From assembly GCA_000171835.1 (NCBI GenBank), contig ABHC01000003.1, positions 248,001 through 312,000 on the forward strand: a stretch of 64,000 nt of DNA, written 5' to 3'. Under the pieces are notes generated by a model. That model saw only the letters and a program-made list of their open reading frames with translations. It had not been told where the DNA came from and did not search any database. Position numbers and translations under genes: made by a program. Positions 2,554-42,192 of this stretch are shown here, piece after piece; the stretch's first letter is position 1, and each line of letters starts with the position of its first letter. Source of the stretch: an alpha proteobacterium BAL199. GTDB taxonomy: Bacteria; Pseudomonadota; Alphaproteobacteria; Thalassobaculales; Thalassobaculaceae.

Positions 2554-3612
2554 ATGCGCAGCTATTCGCTGATGGAGCCCGGCAAGCCGTTCCAGGCGAT
2601 CGACAAGCCGGATCCGGTGCCGACCGGCACCGAGGTGCTGCTTAAGGTCACCCGCGCCGGGGTCTGCCACTCCGACATCCACATCTCCGACGGCTATTTC
2701 GACCTCGGCGGCGGCAAGGTCCTGAACATTGTCGACCGCGGCCAGAAGTTCCCGATCACCCTCGGCCACGAGGTCCTCGGCGAGGTGATCGCCGCCGGTC
2801 CGGATGCCAAGGACGCGCCGATCGGCAAGACCATGCTGGTCCATCCCTGGCTCGGCTGCGGCGAGTGCTCGGCCTGCAAGGCGGAGCAGGAGAACCACTG
2901 CCCGACCATGCGCTCGATCGGCGTCTTTCGCGACGGCGGCTACGCCACCCACTGCGTGGTTCCGCACCCGAAGTATCTGGTGGACATCGGCAACGTCGAC
3001 CCGAGCATCGCCACGCCCTACTCCTGCTCCGGCGTCACCGTGTACTCGGCGCTCAAGAAGGCCCTGCCGATCCGCGATGACGAATGGCTTGCGATCATGG
3101 GGGCCGGCGGCCTCGGCCTGTCGGCGGTAGCCATCGCCAAGGCGATGGGCGTGAAGAACATCATCTCGGTCGACATCGACGACTCCCACCTGACGGCCGC
3201 CAAGGACATGGGCGCCACCGCCACGCTGAATCCCAAGTCGACCGATAGCGCGGTCGCGGCACTGCAGAAGTTGGCGGGCGGGGAACTGCGCGCGGTGGTC
3301 GACACGGTCGGCGGCGAGGCCACCGCCAACCTCGGCATCGCGGCGGTCCGCAAGGGCGGGCGCTACGTGATCGTCGGGCTGTACGGCGGGCAGATCAGCA
3401 TCTCGCTGCCGACGATCCCGATGCGCGCGGTGTCAATCCTCGGCTCGTATGTCGGCTCGCTTGACGAGCTGAAGGAACTGATGGAACTTGTGAAGACTGG
3501 AACCGTCAAGCCGATCCCGATCTCGACCCGTCCGGTCGAGACCGCCTATGACACCCTGCAGGACCTCAAGGCCGGCAAGATCGTCGGCCGGGTGGTGCTG
3601 ACCAACGACTGA
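2554..3612 (+). CDS. Zinc-dependent alcohol dehydrogenase (MDR family)
   Basis: A 352-residue medium-chain dehydrogenase. Catalytic zinc ligands sit in GVCHSDIH and the GHE motif of 'ITLGHEVLGEV'. The structural zinc is held by four cysteines in CGECSACKAEQENHC. The Rossmann glycine motif GAGGLGL is followed by an acidic residue in 'ISVDIDD', which favours NAD(H). A GGGKVLNIVDRGQKFPI insertion after the first zinc ligand is typical of one alcohol dehydrogenase subgroup. Family members interconvert alcohols and aldehydes or ketones in the cytoplasm; the substrate is not predictable. An AAGGGAG ribosome site precedes the ATG. It converges with the next gene, 3 bases apart. Confidence 0.88.
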   Translation: MRSYSLMEPGKPFQAIDKPDPVPTGTEVLLKVTRAGVCHSDIHISDGYFDLGGGKVLNIVDRGQKFPITLGHEVLGEVIAAGPDAKDAPIGKTMLVHPWLGCGECSACKAEQENHCPTMRSIGVFRDGGYATHCVVPHPKYLVDIGNVDPSIATPYSCSGVTVYSALKKALPIRDDEWLAIMGAGGLGLSAVAIAKAMGVKNIISVDIDDSHLTAAKDMGATATLNPKSTDSAVAALQKLAGGELRAVVDTVGGEATANLGIAAVRKGGRYVIVGLYGGQISISLPTIPMRAVSILGSYVGSLDELKELMELVKTGTVKPIPISTRPVETAYDTLQDLKAGKIVGRVVLTND

Positions 3613-3615
3613 GGC

Positions 3616-4392
3616 TCAGCCGACTGTCAGGTCCGCCGTGATCCGGCCGGTGGCGTTGGTTGTGACCAACCGGCACCACCGGCCGTCATGCCCTTTTTGA
3701 CCCAGCAAGCACATGGCGTCATCCCAGAACACCGGGCGCCGGAACCGGCAGCGCACCGTCAGCGGCGCCACCGGACCAAGGGCATCGACCATCCAGGTCA
3801 TGGTCTGCAGGCCCTGTGCAAGCGGCGCCCGGTAGCCGAGGCTCTGCGCGAATTCCGGGTCGAAGTGAATGAGGTTGCCGACCTCGCGCGAGAACGTCGT
3901 GACCCGATCCGGCGTTAGGGTCTGCTCGGCAATCGGCTCCAGGCCGCCGAGGTCGTCTGGGTCTCCGGACCCGGCGCGGCCGCGGTCCGGTGCCGTCATC
4001 GCGGCGGGATCCGGCAGCAGGCCGATATGGGTCAAGGTCGCGGCCACCTCGCCATTGTCCCGGACAACATCGAAACGCTGGGTCACCATTCGCCCCTTGC
4101 GAACCGGTTCAACGCTTTCGGTCAGCCCGCGAAACCGGATCTCCTCGCCGATCGCGGCATGGGCGCCGACCGTCATGACCTGCTGGACGTGGACGTAGCC
4201 GTTCGGTTGCTGGCGAACCAGCTTCATGCCGCGAAAGCCGTCATTGCCCCACAGCGTCGGCTCGGCGATGCCGGCCCAAATTTCGGGATCAGCACCGGCG
4301 GCAGCCAGCCACCGTGCCTGATCCTCCGCGGTTCGGATGATGCGCCGCTCCGGAAAAACGAAGCCGGCCTCAAGCGACGCATTCTCCCGCAT
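3616..4392 (-). CDS. MaoC-like / FAS1-like hotdog dehydratase
   Basis: A 258-residue protein with two hotdog-like halves. The N-terminal half resembles the FAS1-like dehydratase domain. The C-terminal half carries a hydratase-2-like motif, NLIHFDPEFAQSLGYRAPLAQG, with the His/Asp pair expected for hydration or dehydration of acyl-CoA thioesters. Relatives act on mesaconyl-CoA or (R)-3-hydroxyacyl-CoA type substrates. The start is only 4 bases after the stop of the molybdo-enzyme gene upstream, so it is the last gene of that leftward operon. The link to redox genes is unexplained, and the substrate is unknown. Confidence 0.78.
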   Translation of the reverse strand: MRENASLEAGFVFPERRIIRTAEDQARWLAAAGADPEIWAGIAEPTLWGNDGFRGMKLVRQQPNGYVHVQQVMTVGAHAAIGEEIRFRGLTESVEPVRKGRMVTQRFDVVRDNGEVAATLTHIGLLPDPAAMTAPDRGRAGSGDPDDLGGLEPIAEQTLTPDRVTTFSREVGNLIHFDPEFAQSLGYRAPLAQGLQTMTWMVDALGPVAPLTVRCRFRRPVFWDDAMCLLGQKGHDGRWCRLVTTNATGRITADLTVG

Positions 4393-4396
4393 GGTC

Positions 4397-6721
4397 TCAG
4401 TTCTCGATAATCTCAGGCGGTCGATGGGCCGTGACCGCCGGGATCGCGCCGTCGACCCGCGCCACCTCGACCAGACAGGAGTGCGCCGCCGGGCCTTGGC
4501 CCAGGCGCGACGTGCCGCGGTCGCGGGTCAGGACGTTCGGGTTGCCGTGCTTCTCCAGCCCCTCGGTCTGGCCGGGCGTCTGCGGGTCGTACCAAGCGCC
4601 AGTCGACAGCTGGACGATCCCCGGCATTACCGCGTCGGAGACGATCACCCCGGCAAGGCACGATCCGCGGTTGTTCCACACCCGCACCACGTCACCGGAC
4701 TTGATGCCGCGGGACGCCGCATCGTCGGGATGGATGGTCATCGGCTCGCGATCGGCGATCTTAGAGCCCATGCTGACCGAACCCGGATCGAGCTGGCTGT
4801 GCAGCCGGGTGCGCGGCTGGTTCGACATCAGATGCAGTGGGTAGGTCTGCGCCAGCTTGCCGCCCAGCCACTCGTCCGGCTCACGCCACACCGGATGGCC
4901 CGGGCAGTCGTCATAGCCGAAACCGTCGATCGTCTCGGAGAAGATCTCGATCTTGCCGGACGGGGTCGGCAACGGGTTCGCCTCGGGATCGGTCCGGAAA
5001 CCCTCGAGCAGGATGGTCGGCTTGTCGGCCGCCGGTAGTTCGAAGGTCTCCTGCTCCCAAAATGTCTCGAAATCGGGTAGCTCGAACCCGGCCTCGGCGG
5101 CGCGCTGGCGCGACTGGTCCCAGAGATGGCGCAGCCAGTCCATCTCGTCGCGGCCTTCGGTATATCGCTCGGCGAAACCAAGGTTCCGGGCGAGGCCGCT
5201 GAAGATCTCGTAGTCCGGGCGGCTGTCGCCGACCCGCGGGATCGCCTGCTTCATCGCAACGCTGAGCGGCTCCCAATGGGTGATCGACAGGTCGTTGCGC
5301 TCCAGCGCGGTGGTCGACGGGAACACAATGTCGGCGTGCCGGGCCATGCCGGTCCACCAGATCTCGTTGACGATGATCGTCTCCGGGCGGCGGAACGCCT
5401 CGACCAGCTTGTGCAGGTCCTGGTGGTGGTGGAACGGATTGCCGCCGGCCCAGTAGACCATCCGGATGTCCGGGTAGGTCAGGTCCTTGCCGTCGAACTG
5501 GAACGGCTGGCCCGGATTCAGCAGCATGTCGGAGATCCGGGCGACCGGGATCACGTCCTTGACGTTGTTGATGCCCTGGGACACCGACGGCCAGTGGAAG
5601 AACTTGACGGGATTGCCGACACCGTTCTCGGAGCTGTAGCCGATCCCGAAACCGCCGCCCGGCGTGCCGATCTGGCCCAGCATTGCCGCCAGCACCACCG
5701 TCAGCCAAACCGGCTGCTCACCGTATTCCGCGCGCTGCATCGACCAGGTGGCGTTGATCATGGTGCGGCTGGACGCCATGCGGCGCGCCAGGTCGCGAAT
5801 GGTGTCGGCCGGAACCGTCGTGATCCGCTCTGCCCATTCCGGCGTCTTCGGCTGCCCGTCGCTCTCGCCCATCACGTAGGCGCGGAAGCGGTCGAAGCCG
5901 ACGGTGTAACGGCCCAGGAATGCGTTGTCCTGGAGGTTCTCGGCAATCAGGGTGTGGGCGATCGCCAGCATCAGCGCGGCGTCGGAGCCCGGACGGATCG
6001 GGATCCACTCGGCCCCGAGATCCGGCGGCATGTCGATGCGGATCGGGCTCAGATAGACGATTTCGCAGCCGTTGTCGGCGCAGGCCTTCAGGCCGTGGTA
6101 GCAAGTGTGCTGGCCAACCCCGCCCGACGTCACCTGGGCGTTCTTGACCGGCATGCCGCCGAACGACACCAGCATCTCGCAATGCTCGGCCAGCACCGGC
6201 CAGGTGGTGTGGGTGTCCAGGATCGGTTTGATCGGCCCGACCACGTGCGGAAGGATCTGCTGGGCGGCGGCATAGGAGTAAGTGCCCTCATGTCGGACGT
6301 AGCCGCCGATCTGGTTGAAGAACCGGTGGATGTGCGAGTTGGCGTGGTGGAACCGGCCCGCGCTGGCCCAGCCGTAGGAGCCGGCGTAGAACGCGGTGTT
6401 GCCATGGGCATCCTTGATCCGCTTGATCTCGGCCGCTGCCATCTCCAGCGCCTCGTCCCACGGCACGGCCACGAACGGCTCGCGCCCGCGCCCGGTGCGG
6501 TCGCTGTGCTCGCGCTTGTCCAGCCAGCCCTTGCGGATCATCGGCCGCCCGATCCGGCTTTCGTGTGTGACCGCATCGACGATGCCCGGCCCAATGATCG
6601 CCGGTGCGGGGTCCTTGGCGTAGTCGTGGACGGCGATCAACCGGTCGCCCTCGACTTCCGCGTAGTAGGTGCCCCAGTGGGTCGACGTCGGGATCAGGCG
6701 GCGGGTGACGGCGGTGCTCAT
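4397..6721 (-). CDS. Molybdopterin oxidoreductase, biotin sulfoxide/TMAO reductase type
   Basis: A 774-residue DMSO-reductase-family enzyme. It has no N-terminal CxxC cluster motif and no twin-arginine signal, matching the cytoplasmic BisC-like branch that lacks the 4Fe-4S cluster. The serine of GTYSYAAAQ (about residue 149) is the expected molybdenum ligand. Further family blocks are AGSYGWASAGR, NEIWWTGMARHADIVFPSTT and, near the C-terminus, SNQPRTRLHSQLD and YDPQTPGQTEGLEKHGNPN. Family members reduce S- or N-oxides (biotin or methionine sulfoxide, TMAO). The ATG at 6721 overlaps the upstream stop (ATGA), indicating coupling. The frame extends upstream, but only this start gives the normal length. 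No dedicated electron donor is next to it. Confidence 0.87.
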   Translation of the reverse strand: MSTAVTRRLIPTSTHWGTYYAEVEGDRLIAVHDYAKDPAPAIIGPGIVDAVTHESRIGRPMIRKGWLDKREHSDRTGRGREPFVAVPWDEALEMAAAEIKRIKDAHGNTAFYAGSYGWASAGRFHHANSHIHRFFNQIGGYVRHEGTYSYAAAQQILPHVVGPIKPILDTHTTWPVLAEHCEMLVSFGGMPVKNAQVTSGGVGQHTCYHGLKACADNGCEIVYLSPIRIDMPPDLGAEWIPIRPGSDAALMLAIAHTLIAENLQDNAFLGRYTVGFDRFRAYVMGESDGQPKTPEWAERITTVPADTIRDLARRMASSRTMINATWSMQRAEYGEQPVWLTVVLAAMLGQIGTPGGGFGIGYSSENGVGNPVKFFHWPSVSQGINNVKDVIPVARISDMLLNPGQPFQFDGKDLTYPDIRMVYWAGGNPFHHHQDLHKLVEAFRRPETIIVNEIWWTGMARHADIVFPSTTALERNDLSITHWEPLSVAMKQAIPRVGDSRPDYEIFSGLARNLGFAERYTEGRDEMDWLRHLWDQSRQRAAEAGFELPDFETFWEQETFELPAADKPTILLEGFRTDPEANPLPTPSGKIEIFSETIDGFGYDDCPGHPVWREPDEWLGGKLAQTYPLHLMSNQPRTRLHSQLDPGSVSMGSKIADREPMTIHPDDAASRGIKSGDVVRVWNNRGSCLAGVIVSDAVMPGIVQLSTGAWYDPQTPGQTEGLEKHGNPNVLTRDRGTSRLGQGPAAHSCLVEVARVDGAIPAVTAHRPPEIIEN

Positions 6722-9489
6722 GACGCTCTCCTGCGACGGGCCGCGACCGGCGCGAATGCCCCGTCGAGAACCGCCGCGTGCTCGGCCTTGTGCCACGCGC
6801 CCCAACCGACAGCCGGCGACGGTGCCGCTGGGCGCCCGCAATAGGTGGCACGGCTCTCGGACCCGCGCAAGGAAGCCAGATGCGGCTCGATGTAGCGCCA
6901 AGCGCCCATGTTCTCGGGTTCCTCCTGAGCCCACACCAGTTCGGCCCCGGGATGCTTGGCAAGCACAGCGCGCAGCTCGGCTTCCGGAAACGGATACAGC
7001 TCCTCGACCCGTATCAGAGCAACGTCATCCATCCCGCGCTCACGCCGAGCCGAGGCCAGGTCAAAGAACAGCTTGCCGGCCACCAGAACCACTTTCCGGG
7101 CGCCGGTCGTCCGGTCGGGGTCGTCGATCACCGGACGGAACGCGGTGCCCGGCCCGAACTCGTCGAGCGACGACACCGCCTCGGCGTGCCGCAACCCGGA
7201 TTTTGGGGTCAGCGCGACCAGCGGAACCCGGTACGGCCGCAGCATTTGGCGCCGCAGTGCGTGAAACAGGTTGGCCGGCGAGGCGCAGGCCAGCACCGAC
7301 AGGTTGTTGCCGGCCGCCAGTTGCAGGAACCGCTCCGGCCGGGCCGAGGAGTGTTCAGGCCCGCCGCCCTCCATGCCGTGCGGCAGCAGCAGCACCAGGC
7401 CGGACTGGCGCAGCCACTTGTCATCGCCGGACGTAATGAACTGGTCAATGACCGCCTGGGCGCCGTTCACGAAATCGCCGAACTGCGCCTCCCAGGCGAC
7501 CAGCATGTCCGGATCGGTGATGCTGAGGCCGTACTCAAAAGCCAGACAGGCTTCTTCGGTCAGCGGGCTGTCCGACACGGTCACTCGGGACGGCGCCGAT
7601 GCCAACGCAGCCAGGGGCGTATGTTCATCTCCGGTGGTCTGGTCGAACACCACGGCGTGGCGCTGCGAGAAGGTGCCGCGCCGGCTGTCCTGCCCGGTCA
7701 GCCGAACGCCGTAGCCATCGTCTATCAGACTGGCAAATGCCAACGCCTCGGCGGTGGCGAAGCCGATGCCGTCGCCGCGCTCCAGACTGTCGCTACGCTC
7801 ACCCCACTGCCTGGCGATCTTGGCGTTCAGGTCGAAGCCGTCGGGCACCCGCACCGTCGCGGCGCCGAGCCGCCGCAGCCGGTCGAGCGGCACTCCGGTC
7901 GGTTTCGCGGTGCCTTCGCCACGCGGCTTCAACCCGGACCAGCGGTGGGCAAGCCGGTCGGCGGTGTTCGGCCGATAGCCCTTGGCCGCGTCGTGCGCCT
8001 GACCCAGTGCCACCCAGTGCCGGTCCACGATCGACTGCACGCCGTCCCGATCGATCACCCCCGCGGCCACGCAATCCTCGGCGTAGGCGATTGGCGACGA
8101 CGGACGGGCGGCGATGTGGGTGTACCGCACCGGCTCAGTGAACATCGGCTCCTCGAGCTCGTTGTGGCCGCGCCGCCGGTAACCGACGACGTCGACCACG
8201 ATGTCGCGGCGGAACCGGGCGCGAAACGCCATGGCAATTCGTCCGGCCCGCACCACCTGGTCGACCGCATCGGCCTGCACGTGCAGCACCGGCGCGCCGA
8301 TCGCCTTGGCCGCATCGCTGGGGTGCCGCGAGGTGCGACCGTGCTCAGGCTTCACCGTGAAGGCCAACTGGTTGTTGGAGATCACATGGACCGAACCGCC
8401 GACCGAATAGGCCGGAAGATCGGCCAGCTGCAGCATCTCCCCCACCACGCCCTGGCCGGAGAACGCGCCATCGGTGTGCAGCAGCAGCGGCAGCACCTTG
8501 CCCTCGGGGTCCACTTCTCCCTTCGCGCGTAACAAATCCTGCTTGGCCCGGGCCTTGCCCAGGGCGACGGCGGCGACGAGCTCCACATGGCTCGGGTTCG
8601 ACGGCATGGTGATCCGCAGCGTGCGGCCACCGATGCTGCGCTCGGTCGAGATCCCCAAGTGATACGGAACATCCGAAGACGCCGCGAAGCCCTTCGGCAC
8701 CTGCGGCGTGCCCAGCAGTTCCGAGAAAGCTGCCGTGAACGACTTGCCGACGATCCGGGTGATCAGAGTCAGACGGCCGCGGTGCATCGGCGCCATAACC
8801 ACGTCGCTGACGCCCGCCGATGCCGCGTCGGCCAGCATGGCCTCCCACATGGGCGCCATCGCCTCCAGCCCCTCCAGACCGAACCGCTTGTTGGTCGGGA
8901 AGCGCTTGTTCATGAACTGCTCGACCGATTCGGCTGCCAGCATGCCGTCCAGTCGGGTCAGCCGTTCATCGTTCGACGGGGACGCGAACCGATCGCCCTC
9001 GATCGCTGAAATCAACCAGTCGCGGGCCTCGACATCCTCCAGATGCGCCACCTCGGCGGTGAACGCTCCGCCCCAGGTCGCGAGCAGCCGGTCCAGAATC
9101 GATGACGGAGTTGCCGCAGAGGCACCCAACGGCGCCGTGACGGCAACCGGGGCGCCCATGTCGTCCGGGGTCAGACCATGCGTCAACGGATCAAGCTCGG
9201 GATGTCCGGCCGGCTGGCGCAACCCGATCGGATCCAGGGACGCCGCCAAATGGCCGTGCATCCGCCAGGCGGCGATCAGCCGTTCGGTCGCCACGCTGCG
9301 ACGGACCAGATTGGCATCCGCAGTCCCGGATTCCACGCGTGGCCGCCTTACTGGATGCACCGTGGCACGGCTGTCCGGCCAAGCCGCGAACACTGGCCAG
9401 AGGCTGGGGTCGACGGACAGCGGGTCATCGAGGAAACGGGAATAAAGATCTTCGAGATAGGCGGCGTCGGCGGCCGGAGGAGTCAGCAT
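6718..9489 (-). CDS. 2-oxoglutarate dehydrogenase E1-like TPP enzyme
   Basis: A 923-residue protein co-linear with SucA. It has the short N-terminal 'YLEDLYSRFLDDPLSVDPSLWPVF' segment, NKRFPTNKRFGLEG, HRGRLTLI, the PSNPSHVE block, a thiamine diphosphate region (HTDGAFSGQGVV followed by VISNNQLAFT) and the C-terminal 'VWAQEEPENMGAW' signature. E1 decarboxylates 2-oxoacids for transfer to lipoyl-E2. The sequence deviates from standard SucA in several conserved places (HTDG instead of HGDA; SNNQLAF instead of VNNQIGF), and no sucB or lpd is adjacent; instead a molybdo-enzyme overlaps its stop. It is probably a divergent paralogue. The gene symbol is left blank for that reason. Confidence 0.82.
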   Translation of the reverse strand: MLTPPAADAAYLEDLYSRFLDDPLSVDPSLWPVFAAWPDSRATVHPVRRPRVESGTADANLVRRSVATERLIAAWRMHGHLAASLDPIGLRQPAGHPELDPLTHGLTPDDMGAPVAVTAPLGASAATPSSILDRLLATWGGAFTAEVAHLEDVEARDWLISAIEGDRFASPSNDERLTRLDGMLAAESVEQFMNKRFPTNKRFGLEGLEAMAPMWEAMLADAASAGVSDVVMAPMHRGRLTLITRIVGKSFTAAFSELLGTPQVPKGFAASSDVPYHLGISTERSIGGRTLRITMPSNPSHVELVAAVALGKARAKQDLLRAKGEVDPEGKVLPLLLHTDGAFSGQGVVGEMLQLADLPAYSVGGSVHVISNNQLAFTVKPEHGRTSRHPSDAAKAIGAPVLHVQADAVDQVVRAGRIAMAFRARFRRDIVVDVVGYRRRGHNELEEPMFTEPVRYTHIAARPSSPIAYAEDCVAAGVIDRDGVQSIVDRHWVALGQAHDAAKGYRPNTADRLAHRWSGLKPRGEGTAKPTGVPLDRLRRLGAATVRVPDGFDLNAKIARQWGERSDSLERGDGIGFATAEALAFASLIDDGYGVRLTGQDSRRGTFSQRHAVVFDQTTGDEHTPLAALASAPSRVTVSDSPLTEEACLAFEYGLSITDPDMLVAWEAQFGDFVNGAQAVIDQFITSGDDKWLRQSGLVLLLPHGMEGGGPEHSSARPERFLQLAAGNNLSVLACASPANLFHALRRQMLRPYRVPLVALTPKSGLRHAEAVSSLDEFGPGTAFRPVIDDPDRTTGARKVVLVAGKLFFDLASARRERGMDDVALIRVEELYPFPEAELRAVLAKHPGAELVWAQEEPENMGAWRYIEPHLASLRGSESRATYCGRPAAPSPAVGWGAWHKAEHAAVLDGAFAPVAARRRRAS

Positions 9490-9624: not shown

Positions 9625-10164
9625 ATGGACGAGCATTGGAGCGTGGACGGCCACCGCCATTTCAAGGCGGCCGGCATCCGCCAGGTCGCCTATGTGCCGG
9701 ACGCCGGGCTGACCAAGCTGATCGAGCGGTGCCGCGAGGACAACGAGATCGAGACGGTGATGTGCGCCACCGAGGAGGAAGGCATCGGCCTTGCCGCCGG
9801 GGCGTGGCTGGCCGGCCAGAAGTCGGCCGTGCTGATGCAGTCCAGCGGTGTCGGCAACACCATCAACGCCATCGCGTCGCTGATCACCTCTGCCCACTTT
9901 CCGCTGTTCACCATTGTCACCATGCGTGGCCAGTGGGGTGAAGGAAATCCTTGGCAGGTGCCGATGGGCCAGGCGGTAGCACCGGTGCTGGAAGCCATCG
10001 GCGTGAAAACGTTCCAGGCCGACACCGCGGCCGATGTCAGTCCGATGATCGAGGCGGGGCTGCGAATGGCCTACAGCACCGATCAGGCGATCGCCGTGCT
10101 GGTGTCGCAACGGGTGATCGGCTCCAAGGTCTGGGTCGCGGGTTCGTCGGAGGGCAAGCCATGA
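9625..10164 (+). CDS. TPP-dependent decarboxylase, alpha (N-terminal) subunit
   Basis: A 179-residue protein equal to the pyrimidine-binding domain of TPP enzymes. It carries the activating glutamate in the CATEEEGIGLAAGAWLAG block (about residue 51) and the QSSGVGNTINAIASL helix. This split architecture is known for sulfopyruvate decarboxylase (ComD/ComE), and single-chain phosphonopyruvate decarboxylases are related. Such enzymes decarboxylate sulfo-, phosphono- or similar pyruvates. The ATG at 9625 follows a GGAG site; the frame upstream offers only a TTG. The stop overlaps the beta-subunit start (ATGA), so the subunits are made together. Confidence 0.82.
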   Translation: MDEHWSVDGHRHFKAAGIRQVAYVPDAGLTKLIERCREDNEIETVMCATEEEGIGLAAGAWLAGQKSAVLMQSSGVGNTINAIASLITSAHFPLFTIVTMRGQWGEGNPWQVPMGQAVAPVLEAIGVKTFQADTAADVSPMIEAGLRMAYSTDQAIAVLVSQRVIGSKVWVAGSSEGKP

Positions 10165-10757
10165 CCGACTTCATCCTGCGCCGCCGCGAGATCCTCAAGA
10201 CCGCCCTCGTCGACCGTGGCGACGCGCTGTTCGTCACCGGCCTCGGCTCGGCCACCTGGGATCTGGCTTCGCTCGGCGACCGGCCGGAGAATTTCTATCT
10301 CTGGGGTGCCATGGGCAACGCCGCGATGATCGGCCTCGGCCTGGCCATCGCGCGACCCGATCGCCGGGTGGTGGTGATCACCGGCGACGGCGAGATGTTG
10401 ATGGGTCTGACATCGTTGACCACCATCGGCGCGCGCCGACCGGAGAACCTGGCGATCTGCGTGCTTGACAACGAACGCTACACCGAGACCGGCCGGCAGC
10501 CGACCGCCACCGGCCTAGGAACCGACCTCGCCGCAGTGGCTGCAGCGTGCGGATTCCCGCAGACCGCAACCCTGCGGACCGAGTCCGACGCGGCCAGGCT
10601 CGGGGACTTGCTGCTACGCACGCCAGGTCCGGTGATGGCCGTCGCCAAAGTGGTCGACGAAACACTCCCGATGGCGGTCCCGCCGCGTGACGGCGGGTAC
10701 CTCAAGACCCGGTTCAGGACGAACCTACTCGGCGAAAAGGCTGCGACCTTGCCATAG
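10161..10757 (+). CDS. TPP-dependent decarboxylase, beta (C-terminal) subunit
   Basis: A 198-residue protein equal to the diphosphate-binding domain. The TPP/Mg motif starts with GDG at residues 75-77 and ends with the Asn of CVLDNERY at about 104. GAMGNAAMIGLGLA is the usual preceding block. With the upstream subunit it makes a complete ComDE-like decarboxylase. No sulfolactate, phosphonate or PEP-mutase gene is nearby, so the substrate (sulfopyruvate, phosphonopyruvate or another 2-oxoacid) is open. Translation is coupled by the ATGA overlap. A PAS_5 gene follows 26 bases later and may be cotranscribed. Confidence 0.82.
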   Translation: MTDFILRRREILKTALVDRGDALFVTGLGSATWDLASLGDRPENFYLWGAMGNAAMIGLGLAIARPDRRVVVITGDGEMLMGLTSLTTIGARRPENLAICVLDNERYTETGRQPTATGLGTDLAAVAAACGFPQTATLRTESDAARLGDLLLRTPGPVMAVAKVVDETLPMAVPPRDGGYLKTRFRTNLLGEKAATLP

Positions 10758-11256: not shown

Positions 11257-12618
11257 TTATCCTTCCTTAAGGTCCCGGGCGTCGTGCCAGCGGCTCAGCG
11301 GCAGCCAGAGCGAGAAGGCCAGCGATGCAAGGGACGGCACCAGCACAGGATCGGGACGGGTCACCGGAACCGGCAGGCCCTCGTTCGAGCCGCCACTCAG
11401 CCAGAACGATAGCGCCCGTCCAAGTGCGGTGGTCATCGTCATCCCGCGGCCGTTGCAAGCCACGGCCGACCAGGCGTTCGGGCCCAACTCCATCAAGCGA
11501 GGCATGAAATCCCGGGCCGCTGCCAACCGGCCCTGCCAGGCGTAGTCGACCCGCAGTTCCGGAAGTTGCGGCAGCAACTTCTGCAGGCGTCCGATGTGAT
11601 GGGTCCGCCCTCGCTCGGCCGAGCCCAACGGATTGGCCAGCAACCCGCCGGTCACCAGCCGGTTGTCCCAGGTCCAGCGATAGGCGATCAGATCCTTGCG
11701 GGTGTCGGCCGAGCAGCGGTCGTTCGGCAGCACCGACTTGCGCAGTTCCGGATCCAGCGGTTCGGTCGCAACCTGGAACAGGGTTATCGGAAACTGCGTG
11801 CCTTCCGCCTCAGGGGCGAGCCCGCCGCCGGTCGCGTTGGTCGTCAGCAGAACCCGGTCGGCGATCAGAACGCCATGCTCGGTCTCAATCCGCCAGACAT
11901 CGCCAATCCTTTCCAGCCGCGTTGCCCGGCTGCCGCTGAACACCTTTGCGCCATGCCGGATCGCGGCTGCCGCCAATCCCCGAACATAGGCAAGCGGATT
12001 CAAGTGACCGCCAGTCGGGTCCAGGAACGCGCCGTGGTACTGGTTCGAGCCGGTCTCGTACACCGCCTCGTCGCGCGACAGGCGCTGAACCGGCCGGCCC
12101 AACGCCTTCCACTGTTCGATCCGGTCGTCCAGCCACGCCGCCTTCTTCGCGGTGTGGATCGGCTGCATCCATCCGGTCTGACGGGCCTGACAGTCGATGC
12201 CGTGGCGTCGGATCAGTTCGAACACCAACTCGCCGCCCTCACCCAGCATCCGGCACAGCAGATTACCCCGCTCCTCGCCGAAATGCTCACGCACCACGCG
12301 TGGATCCAGACCGGTCAGCAGGTTCGGCACTGCGAACCCGGTGTTTCGGCCTGACGCACCGAAACCCGCCTCGTCCGCTTCCAACAACGTGACCTCGTGA
12401 CCCGCTTCGGCAAGATGCAGCGCGGTCGAGAATCCCAGGTAGCCGCCCCCGATCACCGCCAGCGGCGTACGAACCTCGCCCTCAAGCCGCTCGGTCACCG
12501 GTGCCGGCGGCGCCGACGCGTGCCAGAACGATGACTGGAAGCTCACCGAAGGATGTGGGGCGTCGGCCAATCGCTCCCACAAGGTCGGGCGATAGCCGGT
12601 GTGCGCGGGTTGCACCAT
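11257..12618 (-). CDS. FAD-dependent amine/amino-acid oxidoreductase (DAO family)
   Basis: A 453-residue protein with an N-terminal FAD-binding Rossmann motif, VIGGGYLGFSTALHLAEAGHEVTLLEA (seen as VIGGGYLGFSTALHLAEAG then HEVTLLEAD), and the FGASGRNTGF segment typical of PuuB/OrdL-type oxidases. The C-terminal block 'WSAVACNGRGMTMTTALGRALS' closes the FAD site. The N-terminal RPTLWERLADAPHPS leader matches the gamma-glutamylputrescine oxidase-like subgroup. Such enzymes oxidise secondary or primary amines in the cytoplasm, giving aldehyde and peroxide. No puu genes are adjacent, so the substrate is unknown. Confidence 0.85.
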   Translation of the reverse strand: MVQPAHTGYRPTLWERLADAPHPSVSFQSSFWHASAPPAPVTERLEGEVRTPLAVIGGGYLGFSTALHLAEAGHEVTLLEADEAGFGASGRNTGFAVPNLLTGLDPRVVREHFGEERGNLLCRMLGEGGELVFELIRRHGIDCQARQTGWMQPIHTAKKAAWLDDRIEQWKALGRPVQRLSRDEAVYETGSNQYHGAFLDPTGGHLNPLAYVRGLAAAAIRHGAKVFSGSRATRLERIGDVWRIETEHGVLIADRVLLTTNATGGGLAPEAEGTQFPITLFQVATEPLDPELRKSVLPNDRCSADTRKDLIAYRWTWDNRLVTGGLLANPLGSAERGRTHHIGRLQKLLPQLPELRVDYAWQGRLAAARDFMPRLMELGPNAWSAVACNGRGMTMTTALGRALSFWLSGGSNEGLPVPVTRPDPVLVPSLASLAFSLWLPLSRWHDARDLKEG

Positions 12619-12725
12619 TGCGAGAACTCAGATCGGTTGCGGGCGCCCGAGTGTAGAGCGGCCCGCTGGCATTCGACAGCCCAAAGCCGAGCCCTCGTGC
12701 ACCATTCGACGACCGAGAGCCGGAC

Positions 12726-13179: not shown

Positions 13180-14148
13180 TCAGTCCAGCGTGATCGACGC
13201 GCCTGGGTTAAAAGCCACAAATGCAAAGGCGAATTCGACCGAGTAGGGGACATCCCCCCATACTCCATCCCGGAGTTGGCGAACCACCACGTTGCCGACA
13301 TCCCGACCGTCCGCAATGTGCTTGGCATCCAACGCCGAACTTTGCCCGGGTGTCCAGGTAATCCTGAGATCGCCGGTCTCGATGCGGCCGCGCGTCTCGA
13401 CGAGCGACATGCTCCATGCCCGTTCGCCGACGGTGAGCACCCGGGCCAGAGGCGCAATTCCGTCTGGCATCGGGCCTTCGTACAGATATGGCGACGGCAT
13501 GCTGTCGTACCCGGTGTACGGGTTGCGTCCATAGGGACGGACCGTGGCATCGGTCGGGACCAGAACACGACCGGCGGGATAGCGCTCGGCGAACCGCTGC
13601 ATCGACTCCAGCCGCGCCGGGAGAGGCTGCAAGCGCATACCGACCGACGAGCCGACAATCGCCTCACCCTCGTACTGCTGCCACCAGCTCTCGGTCTGGC
13701 GATCGTACATAACGAGGTCGGAATACCGCAGCAGGCCGGTGGTTCCAAAGTCGAACACCTCGGCACCAACCTGCCGGCTGTAAACAAGAGCCGCATTGCA
13801 CAACGGGCTGAACGTGACCACGACCGGCTTACCGCCGACCTGATCATTGACGATCTGGTGCCAGATCAGAACCCGCAGCGGGTAGGCCCGCGCATCATCG
13901 CCGACCGCGATCGACACCACCGGCTCGATGCCCGGCACGGCTGCCTGCTCAATCGATGCGAACCGGGGCTGGTCAATCGGGGGAATGTCGTCCCGGGCTG
14001 GTCCGCCCGGCCGGATCGCGCTGAGGGGAACAGCCGCGCGGGAAAAGTCAGTCACCGGCCAATCGGCCATCCAATGGCGCTGCCCCGCGCCAGCTGACTG
14101 GGCGGCAGATGCCAGAAACAGAACAAGGACGAACCGAACCAACTGCAT
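13180..14148 (-). CDS. DUF3179 domain protein, exported
   Basis: A 322-residue protein starting with a hydrophobic signal peptide (MQLVRFVLVLFLASAAQSAGAG). The rest matches the DUF3179 layout: DIPPIDQPRFASIEQA, then 'GDDARAYPLRVLIWHQIVND', 'VVVTFSPLCNAALVY' with its conserved Cys, FGTTGLLRYSDLVMYDR and TESWWQQYEGEAIVG. The C-terminus 'FAFVAFNP' is also typical. The function of DUF3179 is unknown; it is expected in the periplasm or at the envelope. It is probably transcribed alone. Confidence 0.85.
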   Translation of the reverse strand: MQLVRFVLVLFLASAAQSAGAGQRHWMADWPVTDFSRAAVPLSAIRPGGPARDDIPPIDQPRFASIEQAAVPGIEPVVSIAVGDDARAYPLRVLIWHQIVNDQVGGKPVVVTFSPLCNAALVYSRQVGAEVFDFGTTGLLRYSDLVMYDRQTESWWQQYEGEAIVGSSVGMRLQPLPARLESMQRFAERYPAGRVLVPTDATVRPYGRNPYTGYDSMPSPYLYEGPMPDGIAPLARVLTVGERAWSMSLVETRGRIETGDLRITWTPGQSSALDAKHIADGRDVGNVVVRQLRDGVWGDVPYSVEFAFAFVAFNPGASITLD

Positions 14149-31453: not shown

Positions 31454-31933
31454 ATGGCCAAGGCGATGTTCGCGGCCGGATGCTTCTGGAGTGTGGAAGA
31501 GACTTTCCGGAACGTGACCGGCGTCTCTGACGTCGCCGTCGGCTACAGCGGCGGTGTCGTCGCGGATCCCACCTATGAGCAGGTCTGCTCGGGAACGACC
31601 GGCCATGCCGAGGTCGTGCTGATCGAGTTCGACCAGCGCAAGGTCGACTACGATGAGCTGCTGGAGGTGTTCTGGGACGCCCACGACCCGACGCAGGTGA
31701 ACCGGCAGGGCGCCGATATCGGCAGCCAATACCGTTCCGCCATCTTCACCTTCGACAGCGACCAGGAAGCCGTAGCGCGGGAGTCCAAGCACGGACACGA
31801 CGCGTCCGGCCGGTTTGCCCGTCCGATCGCGACCGAGATCACCCCGGCGGGCCCGTTCTGGCGCGCCGAGGAACGCCATCAGCGCTACCTCGCCAAACGC
31901 AGCGGGGCACTGGCCGAAAAGGTCGCTCACTGA
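31454..31933 (+). CDS. msrA: Peptide methionine sulfoxide reductase A
   Basis: A 159-residue MsrA with the active-site motif [12 protein letters not shown] (Cys10), [26 protein letters not shown] and '[26 protein letters not shown]'. It reduces methionine-S-sulfoxide in proteins using thioredoxin. The usual C-terminal resolving cysteines are absent, so recycling must use the Cys at the 'EQVCSG' position or an external thiol. GGAG precedes the ATG. The next SDR gene starts 16 bases downstream. Confidence 0.94.
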
Positions 31934-36032: not shown

Positions 36033-37199
36033 TCAGGCCAGCGCCGTCTCCAGTTCCGCCAGCAGATCCTCGCAGTCCTCGATGCCAACCGACAGTCGGA
36101 CAAGCCCGTCCGAGATGCCGAGCGCCTCGCGAATCTCCCGCGGTACGCTGGCATGGGTCATGATCGCCGGGTGCTCGATCAGACTCTCCACCCCGCCCAG
36201 CGACTCCGCCAGGGCGAACAACTCACAACGCTCCAGGAACCGGCGGGCGTCGTCCAAGCCCCCCTTCAGGATTGCCGTGACCATGCCGCCGAAGCCGCTC
36301 ATCTGCCGTTTGGCGAGTTCGTGCTGCGGATGGCTCTCCAACCCCGGATAGAACACCTTCTCGATCTTCGGGTGCGCCTCCAGGAATTCGGCGATCCGCT
36401 GGGCGTTGGCGCAGTGCCGCTCCATCCGCACCGGCAGGGTCTTCAGCGCCCGCAGCACCAGGAAGCTGTCGAATGGCCCCGCGATCGATCCGATCGCGTT
36501 TTGCAGGAAGGCGAGCTTGTCGCGGATCATGTCGCGACCTTCGGCCACCACGGCGATGCCGCCGACCACGTCGGAGTGTCCGTTCAGATACTTAGTGGTC
36601 GAGTGCATCACGATGTCGAACCCGTGGTCGAGCGGGCGCTGGACGTAGGGCGAGCAGAAGGTGTTGTCGCACACGCTGAACAGGTTGTGCTGCTTCGCGA
36701 TCTTGGCGATGGCGTCGAGGTCGACCAGCTTCAGCAACGGGTTGGTCGGGCTCTCGACCCAGACCATCTTGGTGTTCTCCTGGATTGCCGCCTCGAACGC
36801 CGCCGGATCCGACAGGTCGACGAAACTGAACTGCAGCCCCGAGGAGCGCCGCCGCACATTCTCGAACAACCGGTAGGAACCGCCGTACAGATCGTCCATG
36901 GCGATCACGTGGTCACCGGAATCCAGCAGTTCCAGCAAAGTGCCGATGGCGGCCAAGCCGCTGGCGAACGCGAAGCCGGCGCCGCCGTTCTCCAGGTCGG
37001 CGACACAGGCCTCCAACGCGAACCGCGTCGGATTCTGGCTGCGCGAATACTCGAACCCCTTGTGCACGCCCGGGCTTTGCTGGACGTAGGTCGAGGTGGC
37101 GTAGATCGGCGTCATGATGGCGCCGGTCGTCGGGTCCGGCGTCTGGCCGGCGTGGATCGCCCGGGTTGCGAATCCGGTCCGGTTGCGGGTGTTCGCCAT
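36033..37199 (-). CDS. Cystathionine gamma-synthase/gamma-lyase (Cys/Met PLP family)
   Basis: A 388-residue Cys/Met-metabolism PLP enzyme: 'YSRSQNPTRFALEACVADLE', the phosphate-site FASGLAAIGT, 'VWVESPTNPLLKLVDLDAI', and the cofactor Lys in 'MHSTTKYLNGHSDVVGG'. The C-terminal 'SLGGVESLIEHPAIMTHASVP' is typical. Following cystathionine beta-synthase 16 bases upstream, a gamma-lyase role in homocysteine-to-cysteine conversion is the most likely; gamma-synthase activity cannot be excluded. GGAG precedes the ATG. Confidence 0.9.
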   Translation of the reverse strand: MANTRNRTGFATRAIHAGQTPDPTTGAIMTPIYATSTYVQQSPGVHKGFEYSRSQNPTRFALEACVADLENGGAGFAFASGLAAIGTLLELLDSGDHVIAMDDLYGGSYRLFENVRRRSSGLQFSFVDLSDPAAFEAAIQENTKMVWVESPTNPLLKLVDLDAIAKIAKQHNLFSVCDNTFCSPYVQRPLDHGFDIVMHSTTKYLNGHSDVVGGIAVVAEGRDMIRDKLAFLQNAIGSIAGPFDSFLVLRALKTLPVRMERHCANAQRIAEFLEAHPKIEKVFYPGLESHPQHELAKRQMSGFGGMVTAILKGGLDDARRFLERCELFALAESLGGVESLIEHPAIMTHASVPREIREALGISDGLVRLSVGIEDCEDLLAELETALA

Positions 37200-37215
37200 A
37201 CGACTCTCCGATGTG

Positions 37216-38589
37216 TCAGCCGAGCTTTCGGCGCAGATGGTTGATGAGATCGACCTTGGTCACCATGCCGAGGAAGGTACCCTTGTCATCCTCGACGATC
37301 GCCACCTTGTCGGCCTTGAACAGCGGCAACAGCGCCGAGGTATCGGCGCCGGCCGCCAGAGTATCCAGTTTGCTGGTCATGTGGGTGTCGACGGCGTCTT
37401 GGAAGCAGTCGGCGCATTCGTGGACCGCCATCAGCAGGTCCTCTTCGTCGAGCAGGCCGACAATCTTCGTCCCGTCGATCACCGGCAACTGCGATACGTC
37501 GTTGGCCCGCATCCGGTTGTAGGCGGTGTTGATGGTGTCCTTGGGCCCAACCGATACGATCCGGCCTTCGTCGGCCCGGCGCGTGATCAGGTCGCGCAGG
37601 TCGCCGGCGGCCGGCCGGTCGAGCAGCCCCTGGTCGGCCAGCCAGGCGTCATCGTAAGCCTTGGACAGGTACTTGTTGCCGGTGTCGCACACGAAGGTAA
37701 CGACCCGCAGCGGCTCGGTCTGCCGCCGGCACCAGCGCAGCGCGCCGGCCAGCAGGGTCCCGGTCGATGTCCCGCCGAGAATGCCTTCGGTGCGCAGCAG
37801 TTCGTTAACGGCCGCGAAGGCCTCCTTGTCGCTGACGGTGACGCCGTCGTCGATGACCGACAGGTCCAGGTTCGGCGGGATGAAGTCCTCGCCGATGCCC
37901 TCGACCAGCCAGGATCCGCCCTCGTACTTGACCCGGCCGGTCTCAACCGCGCCGGCAACGACGGAGCCGGCCGGATCGGCCACTACAACCCGCAGCTTGG
38001 GGTTCTTCGATTTCAGGTACCGCCCGGTGCCGGAGATGGTGCCGCCGGAGCCGACGCCCGCGACCAGCGCGTCCACCCGGCCGTCCATCTGCTCCCAAAT
38101 TTCGGGGCCAGTCGTGGTCTCGTGCGCCAGGGGGTTCGCCGGATTGTCAAACTGGCTCGCCCAGAACGCGCCCGGCGTCTCGGCCACGATCCGCTCCGCC
38201 ATGTCCTGGTAGTATTCGGGATGCCCTTTCGGAACGTCGGAGCGGGTCAGCCGGACCTCGGCGCCGAGTGCGCGCAGATGGCGAATCTTATCCGCACTCA
38301 TCTTGTCCGGGATCACCAGGATCAGCCGGTAGCCCTTCTGGGCCGCCACCAGGGCGAGCCCCAGGCCGGTGTTCCCAGCGGTCGCCTCGACGATGATCCC
38401 GCCCGGCTTCAACCGGCCGTCCCGTTCCGCCGCCTCGATCATCGCCAGTCCGATGCGGTCCTTGATCGATCCAGCCGGGTTCTGGTTCTCCAGCTTGATG
38501 AACAACCGGCACGGCCCGGTGTCCAGGCGGGTCAATTCCAGCATCGGCGTGTTGCCGATCATCTCGAGTACGGATCTGGGAGGCGCCAT
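37216..38589 (-). CDS. Cystathionine beta-synthase with CBS domains
   Basis: A 457-residue PLP enzyme. The fold-II catalytic domain has the cofactor Lys in 'NQNPAGSIKDRIGLAMI', EATAGNTGLGLALVAAQKG and the glycine loop GSGGTISGTGRYLK. Residues about 335-455 hold a CBS-domain pair ('IVSVGPKDTINTAYNRMRANDVSQLPVIDGTKIVGLL'). It joins serine and homocysteine to cystathionine; the CBS pair suggests control by an adenosyl ligand. No haem domain. ATG 38589 follows GGAG. First gene of the transsulfuration operon; an IS630 copy sits 63 bases upstream, close to its promoter. Confidence 0.92.
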   Translation of the reverse strand: MAPPRSVLEMIGNTPMLELTRLDTGPCRLFIKLENQNPAGSIKDRIGLAMIEAAERDGRLKPGGIIVEATAGNTGLGLALVAAQKGYRLILVIPDKMSADKIRHLRALGAEVRLTRSDVPKGHPEYYQDMAERIVAETPGAFWASQFDNPANPLAHETTTGPEIWEQMDGRVDALVAGVGSGGTISGTGRYLKSKNPKLRVVVADPAGSVVAGAVETGRVKYEGGSWLVEGIGEDFIPPNLDLSVIDDGVTVSDKEAFAAVNELLRTEGILGGTSTGTLLAGALRWCRRQTEPLRVVTFVCDTGNKYLSKAYDDAWLADQGLLDRPAAGDLRDLITRRADEGRIVSVGPKDTINTAYNRMRANDVSQLPVIDGTKIVGLLDEEDLLMAVHECADCFQDAVDTHMTSKLDTLAAGADTSALLPLFKADKVAIVEDDKGTFLGMVTKVDLINHLRRKLG

Positions 38590-38652: not shown

Positions 38653-39801
38653 GTGGATAAAATCCGACATTAGAATCCCGCTCAGAATTCCCGCGGGTTC
38701 GGTGGCGTGCGAGTCTGGGGCATGCGCACCGGGATCAGCTTCACCGTCAGTACCGCCGATCGCGCCCGCCTGGAGGCGATCGTGGCGGACCGCAACAGCC
38801 CGCAAAAGCACGTCTGGCGCTGCCGGATCGTGCTGCTCACCGCCGCGGGCCTGGGCACCAACGCGATCATGCGCGAGGCCGGGGTCGCCAAGACGGCGGT
38901 CTGGCGCTGGCAGGAGCGCTTCGCCGCCGAAGGCGTGGACGGGCTGCTGCGGGACAAGACGCGCCCGTCGCGGATCCCGCCGCTGGACCCCTCGGTGGCC
39001 GAGCGCGTCGTCGCCCTGACCCTGACCGATCCGCCCGGCGAGACGACCCACTGGACCGCCGCAACGATGGCGGCACAGACCGGCATCTCGGTTAGTTCGG
39101 TGCAGCGGATCTGGCGTGCTCACGGTTTGGCCCCGCATCGGATCCGGCAGTTCAAGCTCTCGAACGACCCGGAGTTCGTGACCAAGCTGCGCGACGTGGT
39201 CGGGCTCTATGTCGACCCGCCGGCCCACGCCATCGTGCTCAGCGTCGACGAGAAGAGCCAGATCCAGGCGCTCGACCGCACCCAGCCCGGCCTGCCGCTG
39301 AAGAAGGGCCGCGCCGGCACCATGACCCACGACTACAAGCGCCATGGCACCACCACCTTGTTCGCTGCCCTCAACGTGCTCGACGGCACCGTCATCGGCC
39401 GCAACATGCAGCGTCACCGCCACCAGGAGTTCATCCGCTTCCTCAACCACATCGAGGCCCAGGTTCCGGCCGGCAAGGTGATCCACGCCGTCCTCGACAA
39501 CTACGCCGCCCACAAGCACCCCAAGGTCCGCGCCTGGCTGCACCGCCATCCCCGCTGGACCTTCCACTTCGTGCCGACCTCATGTTCCTGGCTCAACGCC
39601 GTCGAAGGCTTCTTCGCCAGGCTCGCCAAGCGCCGCCTCAAGCGCGGCGTCTTCCGCTCTGTCGCCGACCTCCAGGCCGCCATCAACCGCTTCCTCGACG
39701 AGCACAACGCCTCAGATCCGAAGCCCTTCAACTGGACAGCCGATCCCGACAAAATCATCGCCGCCGTCAGGCGTGGGCACCAAGTGTTGGATTCTATCCA
39801 C
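38653..39801 (+). mobile_element. IS630-family insertion sequence, copy 1
   Basis: A 1149-bp element with terminal inverted repeats: left GTGGATAAAATCCGACA, right (complement) GTGGATAGAATCCAACA. A TA duplication flanks it (38651-38652 and 39802-39803), inside a CTAG target. It carries one transposase gene. It lies between the cystathionine beta-synthase start and the unrecognised gene. It differs from copies 2 and 3 by at least one base in the left non-coding end (CAGAATTC against CAGGATTC). Confidence 0.95.
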
Positions 39802-39804
39802 TAG
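38707..39804 (+). CDS. IS630-family transposase, copy 1
   Basis: A 365-residue Tc1/mariner-superfamily transposase: N-terminal helix-turn-helix ('AGLGTNAIMREAGVAKTAVWRWQERFA'), a second HTH around 'TGISVSSVQRIWRAHGLAPHRI', and the DDE triad in VLSVDEKSQIQ, AVLDNYAAHKHP and WLNAVEGFFAR. The GTG at 38707 opens the frame; an inner ATG (MRTGISFTVS) five codons later is equally possible. The last in-element codon is CAC, and the TAG stop is formed by the target-site TA plus the flanking G. Confidence 0.93.
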   Translation: MRVWGMRTGISFTVSTADRARLEAIVADRNSPQKHVWRCRIVLLTAAGLGTNAIMREAGVAKTAVWRWQERFAAEGVDGLLRDKTRPSRIPPLDPSVAERVVALTLTDPPGETTHWTAATMAAQTGISVSSVQRIWRAHGLAPHRIRQFKLSNDPEFVTKLRDVVGLYVDPPAHAIVLSVDEKSQIQALDRTQPGLPLKKGRAGTMTHDYKRHGTTTLFAALNVLDGTVIGRNMQRHRHQEFIRFLNHIEAQVPAGKVIHAVLDNYAAHKHPKVRAWLHRHPRWTFHFVPTSCSWLNAVEGFFARLAKRRLKRGVFRSVADLQAAINRFLDEHNASDPKPFNWTADPDKIIAAVRRGHQVLDSIH

Positions 39805-41040: not shown

Positions 41041-42189
41041 GTGGATAAAATCCGACATTAGAATCCCGCTCAGGATTCCCGCGGGTTCGGTGGCGTGCGA
41101 GTCTGGGGCATGCGCACCGGGATCAGCTTCACCGTCAGTACCGCCGATCGCGCCCGCCTGGAGGCGATCGTGGCGGACCGCAACAGCCCGCAAAAGCACG
41201 TCTGGCGCTGCCGGATCGTGCTGCTCACCGCCGCGGGCCTGGGCACCAACGCGATCATGCGCGAGGCCGGGGTCGCCAAGACGGCGGTCTGGCGCTGGCA
41301 GGAGCGCTTCGCCGCCGAAGGCGTGGACGGGCTGCTGCGGGACAAGACGCGCCCGTCGCGGATCCCGCCGCTGGACCCCTCGGTGGCCGAGCGCGTCGTC
41401 GCCCTGACCCTGACCGATCCGCCCGGCGAGACGACCCACTGGACCGCCGCAACGATGGCGGCACAGACCGGCATCTCGGTTAGTTCGGTGCAGCGGATCT
41501 GGCGTGCTCACGGTTTGGCCCCGCATCGGATCCGGCAGTTCAAGCTCTCGAACGACCCGGAGTTCGTGACCAAGCTGCGCGACGTGGTCGGGCTCTATGT
41601 CGACCCGCCGGCCCACGCCATCGTGCTCAGCGTCGACGAGAAGAGCCAGATCCAGGCGCTCGACCGCACCCAGCCCGGCCTGCCGCTGAAGAAGGGCCGC
41701 GCCGGCACCATGACCCACGACTACAAGCGCCATGGCACCACCACCTTGTTCGCTGCCCTCAACGTGCTCGACGGCACCGTCATCGGCCGCAACATGCAGC
41801 GTCACCGCCACCAGGAGTTCATCCGCTTCCTCAACCACATCGAGGCCCAGGTTCCGGCCGGCAAGGTGATCCACGCCGTCCTCGACAACTACGCCGCCCA
41901 CAAGCACCCCAAGGTCCGCGCCTGGCTGCACCGCCATCCCCGCTGGACCTTCCACTTCGTGCCGACCTCATGTTCCTGGCTCAACGCCGTCGAAGGCTTC
42001 TTCGCCAGGCTCGCCAAGCGCCGCCTCAAGCGCGGCGTCTTCCGCTCTGTCGCCGACCTCCAGGCCGCCATCAACCGCTTCCTCGACGAGCACAACGCCT
42101 CAGATCCGAAGCCCTTCAACTGGACAGCCGATCCCGACAAAATCATCGCCGCCGTCAGGCGTGGGCACCAAGTGTTGGATTCTATCCAC
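41041..42189 (+). mobile_element. IS630-family insertion sequence, copy 2
   Basis: A 1149-bp copy with the same inverted repeats and TA duplication (41039-41040 and 42190-42191), again in a CTAG target. It lies immediately upstream of the unrecognised gene and downstream of the first histidine kinase gene, in the same orientation as copies 1 and 3. Confidence 0.95.
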
Positions 42190-42192
42190 TAG
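41095..42192 (+). CDS. IS630-family transposase, copy 2
   Basis: A 365-residue transposase with the same protein sequence as copy 1. The DDE residues (VDEKSQ, LDNYAAH, AVEGFF) and both helix-turn-helix segments are intact, so it is probably active. As in copy 1, the TAG stop codon lies outside the element: TA from the target duplication and G from the flanking CTAG. Confidence 0.93.
   Translation: MRVWGMRTGISFTVSTADRARLEAIVADRNSPQKHVWRCRIVLLTAAGLGTNAIMREAGVAKTAVWRWQERFAAEGVDGLLRDKTRPSRIPPLDPSVAERVVALTLTDPPGETTHWTAATMAAQTGISVSSVQRIWRAHGLAPHRIRQFKLSNDPEFVTKLRDVVGLYVDPPAHAIVLSVDEKSQIQALDRTQPGLPLKKGRAGTMTHDYKRHGTTTLFAALNVLDGTVIGRNMQRHRHQEFIRFLNHIEAQVPAGKVIHAVLDNYAAHKHPKVRAWLHRHPRWTFHFVPTSCSWLNAVEGFFARLAKRRLKRGVFRSVADLQAAINRFLDEHNASDPKPFNWTADPDKIIAAVRRGHQVLDSIH

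Follow-up and report, generated by a model that had tools for sequence, protein, structure and literature searches.

An orphan paralogue of the 2-oxoglutarate dehydrogenase E1 subunit encoded next to a BisC-type reductase in alpha proteobacterium BAL199 and related genomes

Of the E1 subunits of 2-oxoglutarate dehydrogenase (OGDH) known as SucA or OdhA, SucA is normally encoded together with sucB and lpd. Their human relative DHTKD1 (E1a), which acts on 2-oxoadipate, is separated from OGDH by four pocket positions listed in PMC7340257. Reductases of the BisC/DorA/MtsZ group act on S-oxides, and sulfopyruvate and phosphonopyruvate decarboxylases (ComDE and Ppd) have a two-subunit, alpha/beta layout. 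Relatives of all these proteins are encoded side by side in a stretch of 64,000 nucleotides of the alpha proteobacterium BAL199 genome (contig ABHC01000003.1, positions 248,001 to 312,000), hereafter called the window. They are P0001, an E1-like thiamine diphosphate (ThDP, also thiamine pyrophosphate, TPP) enzyme, P0002, a BisC-type molybdoenzyme, and the two subunits of a divergently encoded, ComDE-like TPP decarboxylase. P0001 and its closest relatives form a clade distinct from canonical SucA, paralogous to it and selectively maintained. Among the papers listed by literature searches there was no report of a BisC and ComDE-like pair or of a linkage of BisC to an OGDH E1; a search for SucA paralogues returned nothing relevant, as judged by title and start of the abstract.

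P0001 shares with SucA and OdhA the domain order PF16078-PF00676-PF02779-PF16870, in which all four domains score over their cut-offs (PF16078 barely), as well as the catalytic His, Asp, Asn and Glu residues and an OGDH-type pocket. It differs from them in having no sucB neighbour, in being only about 44% identical to the SucA of its own genome, in lying outside the SucA tree, and in changed residues of the ThDP region, T339 and G341 among them. Seven E1_dh matches are found in the genome, two of which are of the SucA type (P0001 as query, E <= 1e-80). The canonical SucA is encoded at C69:85033-87615, in a cluster ordered mdh-sucC-sucD-sucA-sucB-lpd (an alignment identified SucA and Pfam the E2; the remaining genes were named by eye from their sequence starts). 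The three PF00198 (E2) matches of the genome reside on contigs C68, C69 and C55, and none is near the P0001 cluster; inspection of the window's gene calls by eye revealed no E3-like gene, no family search having been aimed at E3. The lack of sucB and lpd around P0001, remarked upon in the first-pass annotation of the window, is thus borne out, and since canonical sucA, sucB and lpd are found elsewhere in the genome, P0001 is an orphan paralogue. P0001 scores 978.6 bits against the 2-oxoglutarate dehydrogenase E1 model NF006914 (cut-off 764). Because this curated cut-off is passed, automatic annotation would probably name the protein 2-oxoglutarate dehydrogenase E1, though the cell has another such gene.

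Of the 36 genomes of the order, 7 have a member of the P0001 clade (G000, G029, G010, G025, G026, G027 and G028), and all 7 belong to the 20 whose completeness is 90% or more. Absences are soft in the 16 genomes that are less than 90% complete or more than 5% contaminated. Clade members are 66-80% identical to P0001. In two trees, one with 44 rows and the other with 26, the clade makes up one side of a long, fully supported branch, the opposite side of which holds canonical SucA/Kgd rows from alphaproteobacteria, gammaproteobacteria and actinobacteria, E. coli SucA included. Forcing the clade together with alphaproteobacterial SucA costs 23.9 log units (approximately unbiased, AU, test, p = 0.006, the test having been run after the quick tree had been inspected). 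Trees are unrooted, midpoint rooting serving for drawing only, and the depth of the branch is uncertain owing to long branches (second E1s, Azospirillum). The careful tree was built without L085, the clade members L047 and L049, further second E1s and some of the SucA rows.

The clade has a narrow distribution in the samples searched. At E <= 1e-255 it was found in 2 of 385 genomes of a class-wide draw, both from the same order, and in 1 of 398 genomes of a phylum-wide draw, which is the window genome itself. All 71 plasmid records matching P0001 are less than 60% identical to it, so that a clade member is absent there. The best 80 loci of a contig scan with P0001 are 36-45% identical, and the tripeptide HTD, typical of the clade, is present in none of the 80. 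Values of dN/dS, calculated with a purpose-written Nei-Gojobori script, range from 0.12 to 0.38 across 21 clade pairs at moderate dS (0.34-0.99), and indicate that the protein is maintained by purifying selection. Recoding at an in-frame TGA, initially suspected in three clade members, has been discarded: the TGA of L047 is the terminal stop, and the other six alignments are stop-free inside.

Residues H236, H277, H704, H713, D340, N373 and E645 of P0001, corresponding in E. coli SucA to His 260, 298, 720 and 729, Asp357, Asn390 and Glu661, are kept in all seven clade members. They comprise the catalytic His, Asp, Asn and Glu residues, assigned in part after PMC7340257. At the four positions that PMC7340257 describes as separating DHTKD1 from OGDH, residues are of the OGDH type in 7/7 members (F203, Y276, F377 and E707), hence the predicted substrate is a dicarboxylate-like 2-oxoacid about the size of 2-oxoglutarate. 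P0001 shares local stretches with DHTKD1, such as GHNEL and EEPxNMG; its score is 622 bits with DHTKD1 and 640 with E. coli E1o. Despite this likeness, identity with DHTKD1 is rejected, as Tyr190, Ser263, Tyr370 and Asp707 of the human enzyme are all absent. The first-pass annotation had proposed a specialised 2-oxoacid decarboxylase. The specialised paralogue is supported, placed as it is outside canonical SucA; the special substrate is conjectural, the pocket being of the OGDH type.

The clade departs from canonical proteins in 33 columns that are the same in 28 or more of the 29 canonical rows. Clade-specific changes cluster in the ThDP region and include HTDG for HGDA, NNQLAF for NNQVGF or NNQIGF, PHG(M/L)EGGG for PHGYEGQG, and APMH for GMAH. 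Of the TPP motif HTDGAFSGQ, singled out earlier as distinctive, T339 and G341 are invariant in the seven members; the serine is not, being replaced by alanine (HTDGAFAGQ) in three of them. These changes may tune substrate or reaction.

Other orphan SucA-like E1s have been noticed (L187, L198, L188, L086, L087 and L085), encoded by Azospirillum and Pseudorhizobium plasmids or occurring as second E1s in G020, G019 and G014. As in P0001, HGD is replaced by HTD in all five that were compared, which carry HTDA where canonical proteins have HGDA, and no sucB is listed near the plasmid genes, in a gene table that is incomplete. Their branches in the tree are separate from that of the P0001 clade, and the plasmid-borne ones adjoin genes for acyl-CoA dehydrogenase and CoA transferase instead of BisC.

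The E1 gene abuts the BisC gene in all seven genomes holding the clade. Gene orders come from a simple, purpose-written caller based on codon usage, by which the two genes overlap as ATGA in G000 and G029 and are 25-60 nt apart in the other five. In the window, the TGA stop of P0001 (6720-6718) overlaps the ATG of P0002 (6721-6719), and a gap of 4 nt separates the stop of P0002 from the ATG of the MaoC-like gene P0003 (4392), exactly as first reported. The recurrence of the E1-BisC adjacency in 7/7 genomes is more than chance would give. By contrast, the three genes, which had been presented as a coupled trio, occur together in only 2 of the 36 genomes, both of one genus, and in the congener a short-chain dehydrogenase/reductase (SDR) gene separates BisC from MaoC; the part of the proposal that holds is the E1-BisC order.

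The conserved partner of BisC, overlooked at first, is the divergent TPP decarboxylase pair. BisC matches (E <= 1e-80) were found in 29/36 genomes of the order, and in 26 of these a ComE-like beta subunit is encoded within 5 kb. The alpha subunit was missed by the gene caller in G029 and G025, and recovered by tblastn. The distance from BisC to the ComE-like gene, measured on match coordinates, is 737-1751 nt in genomes lacking the E1 and 3406-3447 nt in those having it. Frequency of the association and size of the gaps together indicate that the divergent pair is the older unit, and that the E1 gene sits between its halves. In a tree of 20 BisC sequences of the order, one each from 20 of the 29 matching genomes, E1 holders form a single clade (Shimodaira-Hasegawa-like approximate likelihood ratio test, SH-aLRT, 94), the sister of which is G014, where this E1 is missing and the layout is alcohol dehydrogenase ... 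SDR-BisC / TPP alpha, TPP beta ... flavin adenine dinucleotide (FAD) oxidase, major facilitator superfamily (MFS) transporter. A single gain is the simplest account of this clade, though loss in G014 is possible.

The BisC-type protein P0002 scores 1025.7 bits against TIGR00509 bisC_fam (cut-off 1017.55), and its closest entry in PDB is the dimethyl sulfoxide (DMSO) reductase 1eu1 (728.7 bits). Y116, W118 and S149 align with Y114, W116 and S147 of 1eu1, the last of which is presumably the Mo ligand. The motif GSYGW is found in 18 of the 20 BisC sequences of the order examined, all seven E1 holders included; G033 and G035 are off-pattern. The N-terminus, MSTAVTRRLIPTSTHWGTYY, begins directly at the domain, and no twin-arginine leader is visible by eye. 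According to PMC5122715, equivalents of Tyr114 and Trp116 are present in all the S-oxide reductases aligned, and the N-oxide reductase TorA lacks Tyr114. The conserved Tyr and Trp, together with the leaderless N-terminus, make S-oxide reduction in the cytoplasm the likely activity of P0002. The TIGR00509 match and the Y114/W116 equivalents are features shared with BisC, DorA and MtsZ; P0002 departs from these in having a ComDE-like TPP decarboxylase as genomic partner in the order. The alpha and beta subunits of the latter score 129 bits against TIGR03845 (cut-off 147.95) and 132.9 against TIGR03846 (cut-off 221.5), respectively. Both thus miss the equivalog cut-offs of sulfopyruvate decarboxylase and, unlike ComDE and Ppd, which they resemble in layout, have a substrate assignment that is not set by family. 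The association of BisC with the ComDE-like pair in most genomes of the order hints at an uncharacterised route joining S- or N-oxide reduction and 2-oxoacid decarboxylation.

That P0001 may work with an E2 subunit is suggested by its N-terminus. The N-terminal peptides YVEEM and LENPKSVHKSWDIF of human E1o are reported in PMC8146983 as the likeliest contacts with E2o and E3. P0001 carries YLEDL and FLDDPLSVDPSLWPVF, in the same layout as those peptides. PF16078 was scanned in four of the seven clade members, and scores 28.1 bits in P0001, 28.7 and 28.8 in two others, and 22.7 in G010, the cut-off being 27; the score is 58.7 bits in the canonical SucA of the window genome. The C-terminal domain OxoGdeHyase_C is present in 4/4. 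The putative docking segment of P0001 is recognisable, yet weaker than that of SucA, and we infer that it may dock to SucB in trans.

On these grounds, the reading that we tentatively favour, and consider quite possible, is that P0001 is the E1 for a dicarboxylate-like 2-oxoacid of the island, borrowing SucB and Lpd in trans. In the simplest history, a single insertion in the ancestor of three genera would have placed the gene between older BisC and ComDE-like TPP decarboxylase genes. The E1 and BisC genes probably share a transcript; no promoters came up in a scan, and terminators did so in chance number only. The surrounding, catabolic-looking island would make the 2-oxoacid, which P0001 would decarboxylate in a ThDP-dependent reaction. 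The acyl group would then move to the lipoyl arm of SucB of the tricarboxylic acid (TCA) cycle, borrowed together with Lpd, giving acyl-CoA and NADH. The BisC enzyme, presumably cytoplasmic, would strip the S-oxide (or N-oxide) off a compound of the same route. Substrate class, SucB docking, co-transcription and the metabolic tie to sulfoxide reduction are all deduced, and the 2-oxoacids of methionine sulfoxide and of S-methylcysteine sulfoxide have been considered as candidate substrates. Should P0001 indeed draw on SucB in trans, it would be the bacterial counterpart of human DHTKD1, and would caution that other 2-oxoacid dehydrogenases may be hidden under SucA annotations. Some observations weigh against such a role. 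Of the 26 genomes having the BisC/TPP pair, 19 lack this E1, which is therefore accessory to the pair. PF16078 is barely over the cut-off in P0001 and below it in G010, so that docking may be weak or lost. Finally, the clade-specific T339, G341, A376, M/L706 and G709 of the ThDP region could denote a different reaction.

The last two points would also suit a stand-alone ThDP decarboxylase or carboligase, a serious rival, in which P0001 would operate without E2, either releasing a semialdehyde or joining the acyl anion to another aldehyde, and feed neighbouring dehydrogenases. Kgd-type enzymes are capable of both semialdehyde release and carboligation. No E2 gene is close to P0001, the island hosts genes handling alcohols and aldehydes (Zn-dependent alcohol dehydrogenase, SDR, aldo-keto reductase), and the adjoining pair comes from a family of non-oxidative TPP decarboxylases. 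We nevertheless hold this alternative to be less likely, given that PF16078 passes its cut-off in three of the four clade members scanned and OxoGdeHyase_C is kept in all. P0001 might otherwise be a redundant SucA isoenzyme, a backup 2-oxoglutarate dehydrogenase E1 that would serve whenever the BisC cluster is expressed. Pocket, catalytic residues and equivalog score all agree with it, but its placement on a very long branch, apart from every canonical SucA sampled, the many altered columns and the constant linkage to BisC make it unlikely. Somewhat lower still we would place a bolder proposal, according to which P0001 represents a third functional class of OGDH-type E1, distinct from E1o and E1a, that would join the TCA dehydrogenase machinery to sulfoxide metabolism, either by feeding a hybrid complex on SucB from a dicarboxylate-like 2-oxoacid that bears, or derives from, a sulfoxide, or by delivering lipoyl electrons to the S-oxide reductase.

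Supply of electrons could also be the role of the E1, which would give reducing equivalents to the S-oxide reductase via SucB lipoyl and Lpd. Tight E1-BisC coupling and the lack of a visible leader in the BisC-type enzyme, presumably cytoplasmic, would accord with it, and a lipoyl/Lpd-linked peroxidase exists in mycobacteria. The idea is very improbable, because BisC occurs without this E1 in 22/29 genomes, and a contact between BisC and lipoyl finds no support in the sequences. Least probable of all is that the E1 paralogue is hitch-hiking by chance in a locus of unrelated function. Its apparently late and single arrival in an existing pair could be so explained; linkage and order have been kept across three genera though some flanking genes changed, and ATGA overlaps in two genomes, short gaps in the others and purifying selection all speak against it.

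Table 1. Genes at the P0001 locus, in window coordinates
Feature	Coordinates	Strand	Remarks
E1o-like ThDP enzyme P0001, 923 aa, orphan OGDH-E1 paralogue	6718..9489	-	Open reading frame (ORF) from ATG at 9489 to stop at 6718
P0002, BisC-type molybdopterin S/N-oxide reductase, 774 aa	4397..6721	-	TIGR00509 above cut-off
P0003, MaoC-like, 258 aa, probable double-hotdog hydratase/dehydratase, accessory island member	3616..4392	-	PF01575, 26.9 bits
ComD-like TPP decarboxylase alpha subunit, divergent from E1 gene	9625..10164	+	TIGR03845; start as set by gene caller
ComE-like TPP decarboxylase beta subunit	10161..10757	+	TIGR03846
DAO-family FAD oxidoreductase	11257..12618	-	Best curated model L-pipecolate oxidase AmaA
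P0004, Zn-dependent alcohol dehydrogenase, convergent with MaoC gene	2554..3612	+	

The other genes of the island are more loosely associated (Table 1). P0003 falls just short of the PF01575 MaoC cut-off (27). A profile of six P0003 homologues matches HtdX (3wew, E 1.1e-4), and hydratase-2 structures with E values up to 5.5e-3. An Asp/His pair is presumably catalytic in MaoC/hydratase-2 proteins; in the P0003 family the His of the GNxxH motif is invariant (20/20 aligned), and the preceding acidic position varies (glutamate in P0003; aspartate, proline or lysine in others). A fold prediction of P0003 alone was discarded as too poor (mean predicted local distance difference test, pLDDT, score 41). 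Of the 21 genomes where MaoC was matched, 9 have it no more than 3 kb from BisC, and seven of those 9 lack this E1. Among the seven E1 holders, it is near BisC only in G000 and G029; in G025, G027 and G028 the homologue is located elsewhere, beside an SDR gene, and no match at E <= 1e-10 was found in G010 and G026. MaoC belongs to the island as an accessory, and is no constant companion of the E1.

A homologue of the FAD oxidoreductase is encoded within 6 kb of the E1 in 7/7 genomes. The protein scores 293.8 bits against the AmaA model, far under the cut-off of 600. In genus g9 (5/5 genomes, devoid of such an E1) the orthologue lies 3.1 kb from canonical sucA; in G016, the one inspected, it is found at 11288-12655 (-) of locus L199, just downstream of sucA-sucB-lpd. 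As the five g9 genomes are close relatives, this placement counts as one event. Overall, 12 of the 17 genomes featuring a close orthologue (at least 67% identity; weaker matches, at most 41% identical, were excluded) have the oxidase gene near one for an OGDH-type E1. In the remaining five it is near BisC without the E1 (G014, G015) or, among the matches tabulated, near neither (G009, G021, G022). This placement fits a supply of 2-oxoacid, and does not show it. Genes for Zn-alcohol dehydrogenase, SDR, MFS transporter, CoA ligase and an isocitrate/isopropylmalate-dehydrogenase-like protein recur in part of the genomes; a P0004 homologue is again part of the island in some of the related genomes.

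A DUF3179 protein is encoded at 13180-14148 (-) of the window, and homologues are present in 7/7 E1-holding neighbourhoods. Farther away, sulfur amino-acid genes of the cystathionine type, together with one resembling MsrA, all named by eye, are located at 36033-38562 (-) and 31454-31933 (+). Three near-identical ORFs of 360 aa, transposase-like by eye, are found on the plus strand at 38722-39804, 41110-42192 and 44218-45300. The first two are identical at the DNA level and the third has one difference, and the element has plausibly been multiplied recently within 7 kb.

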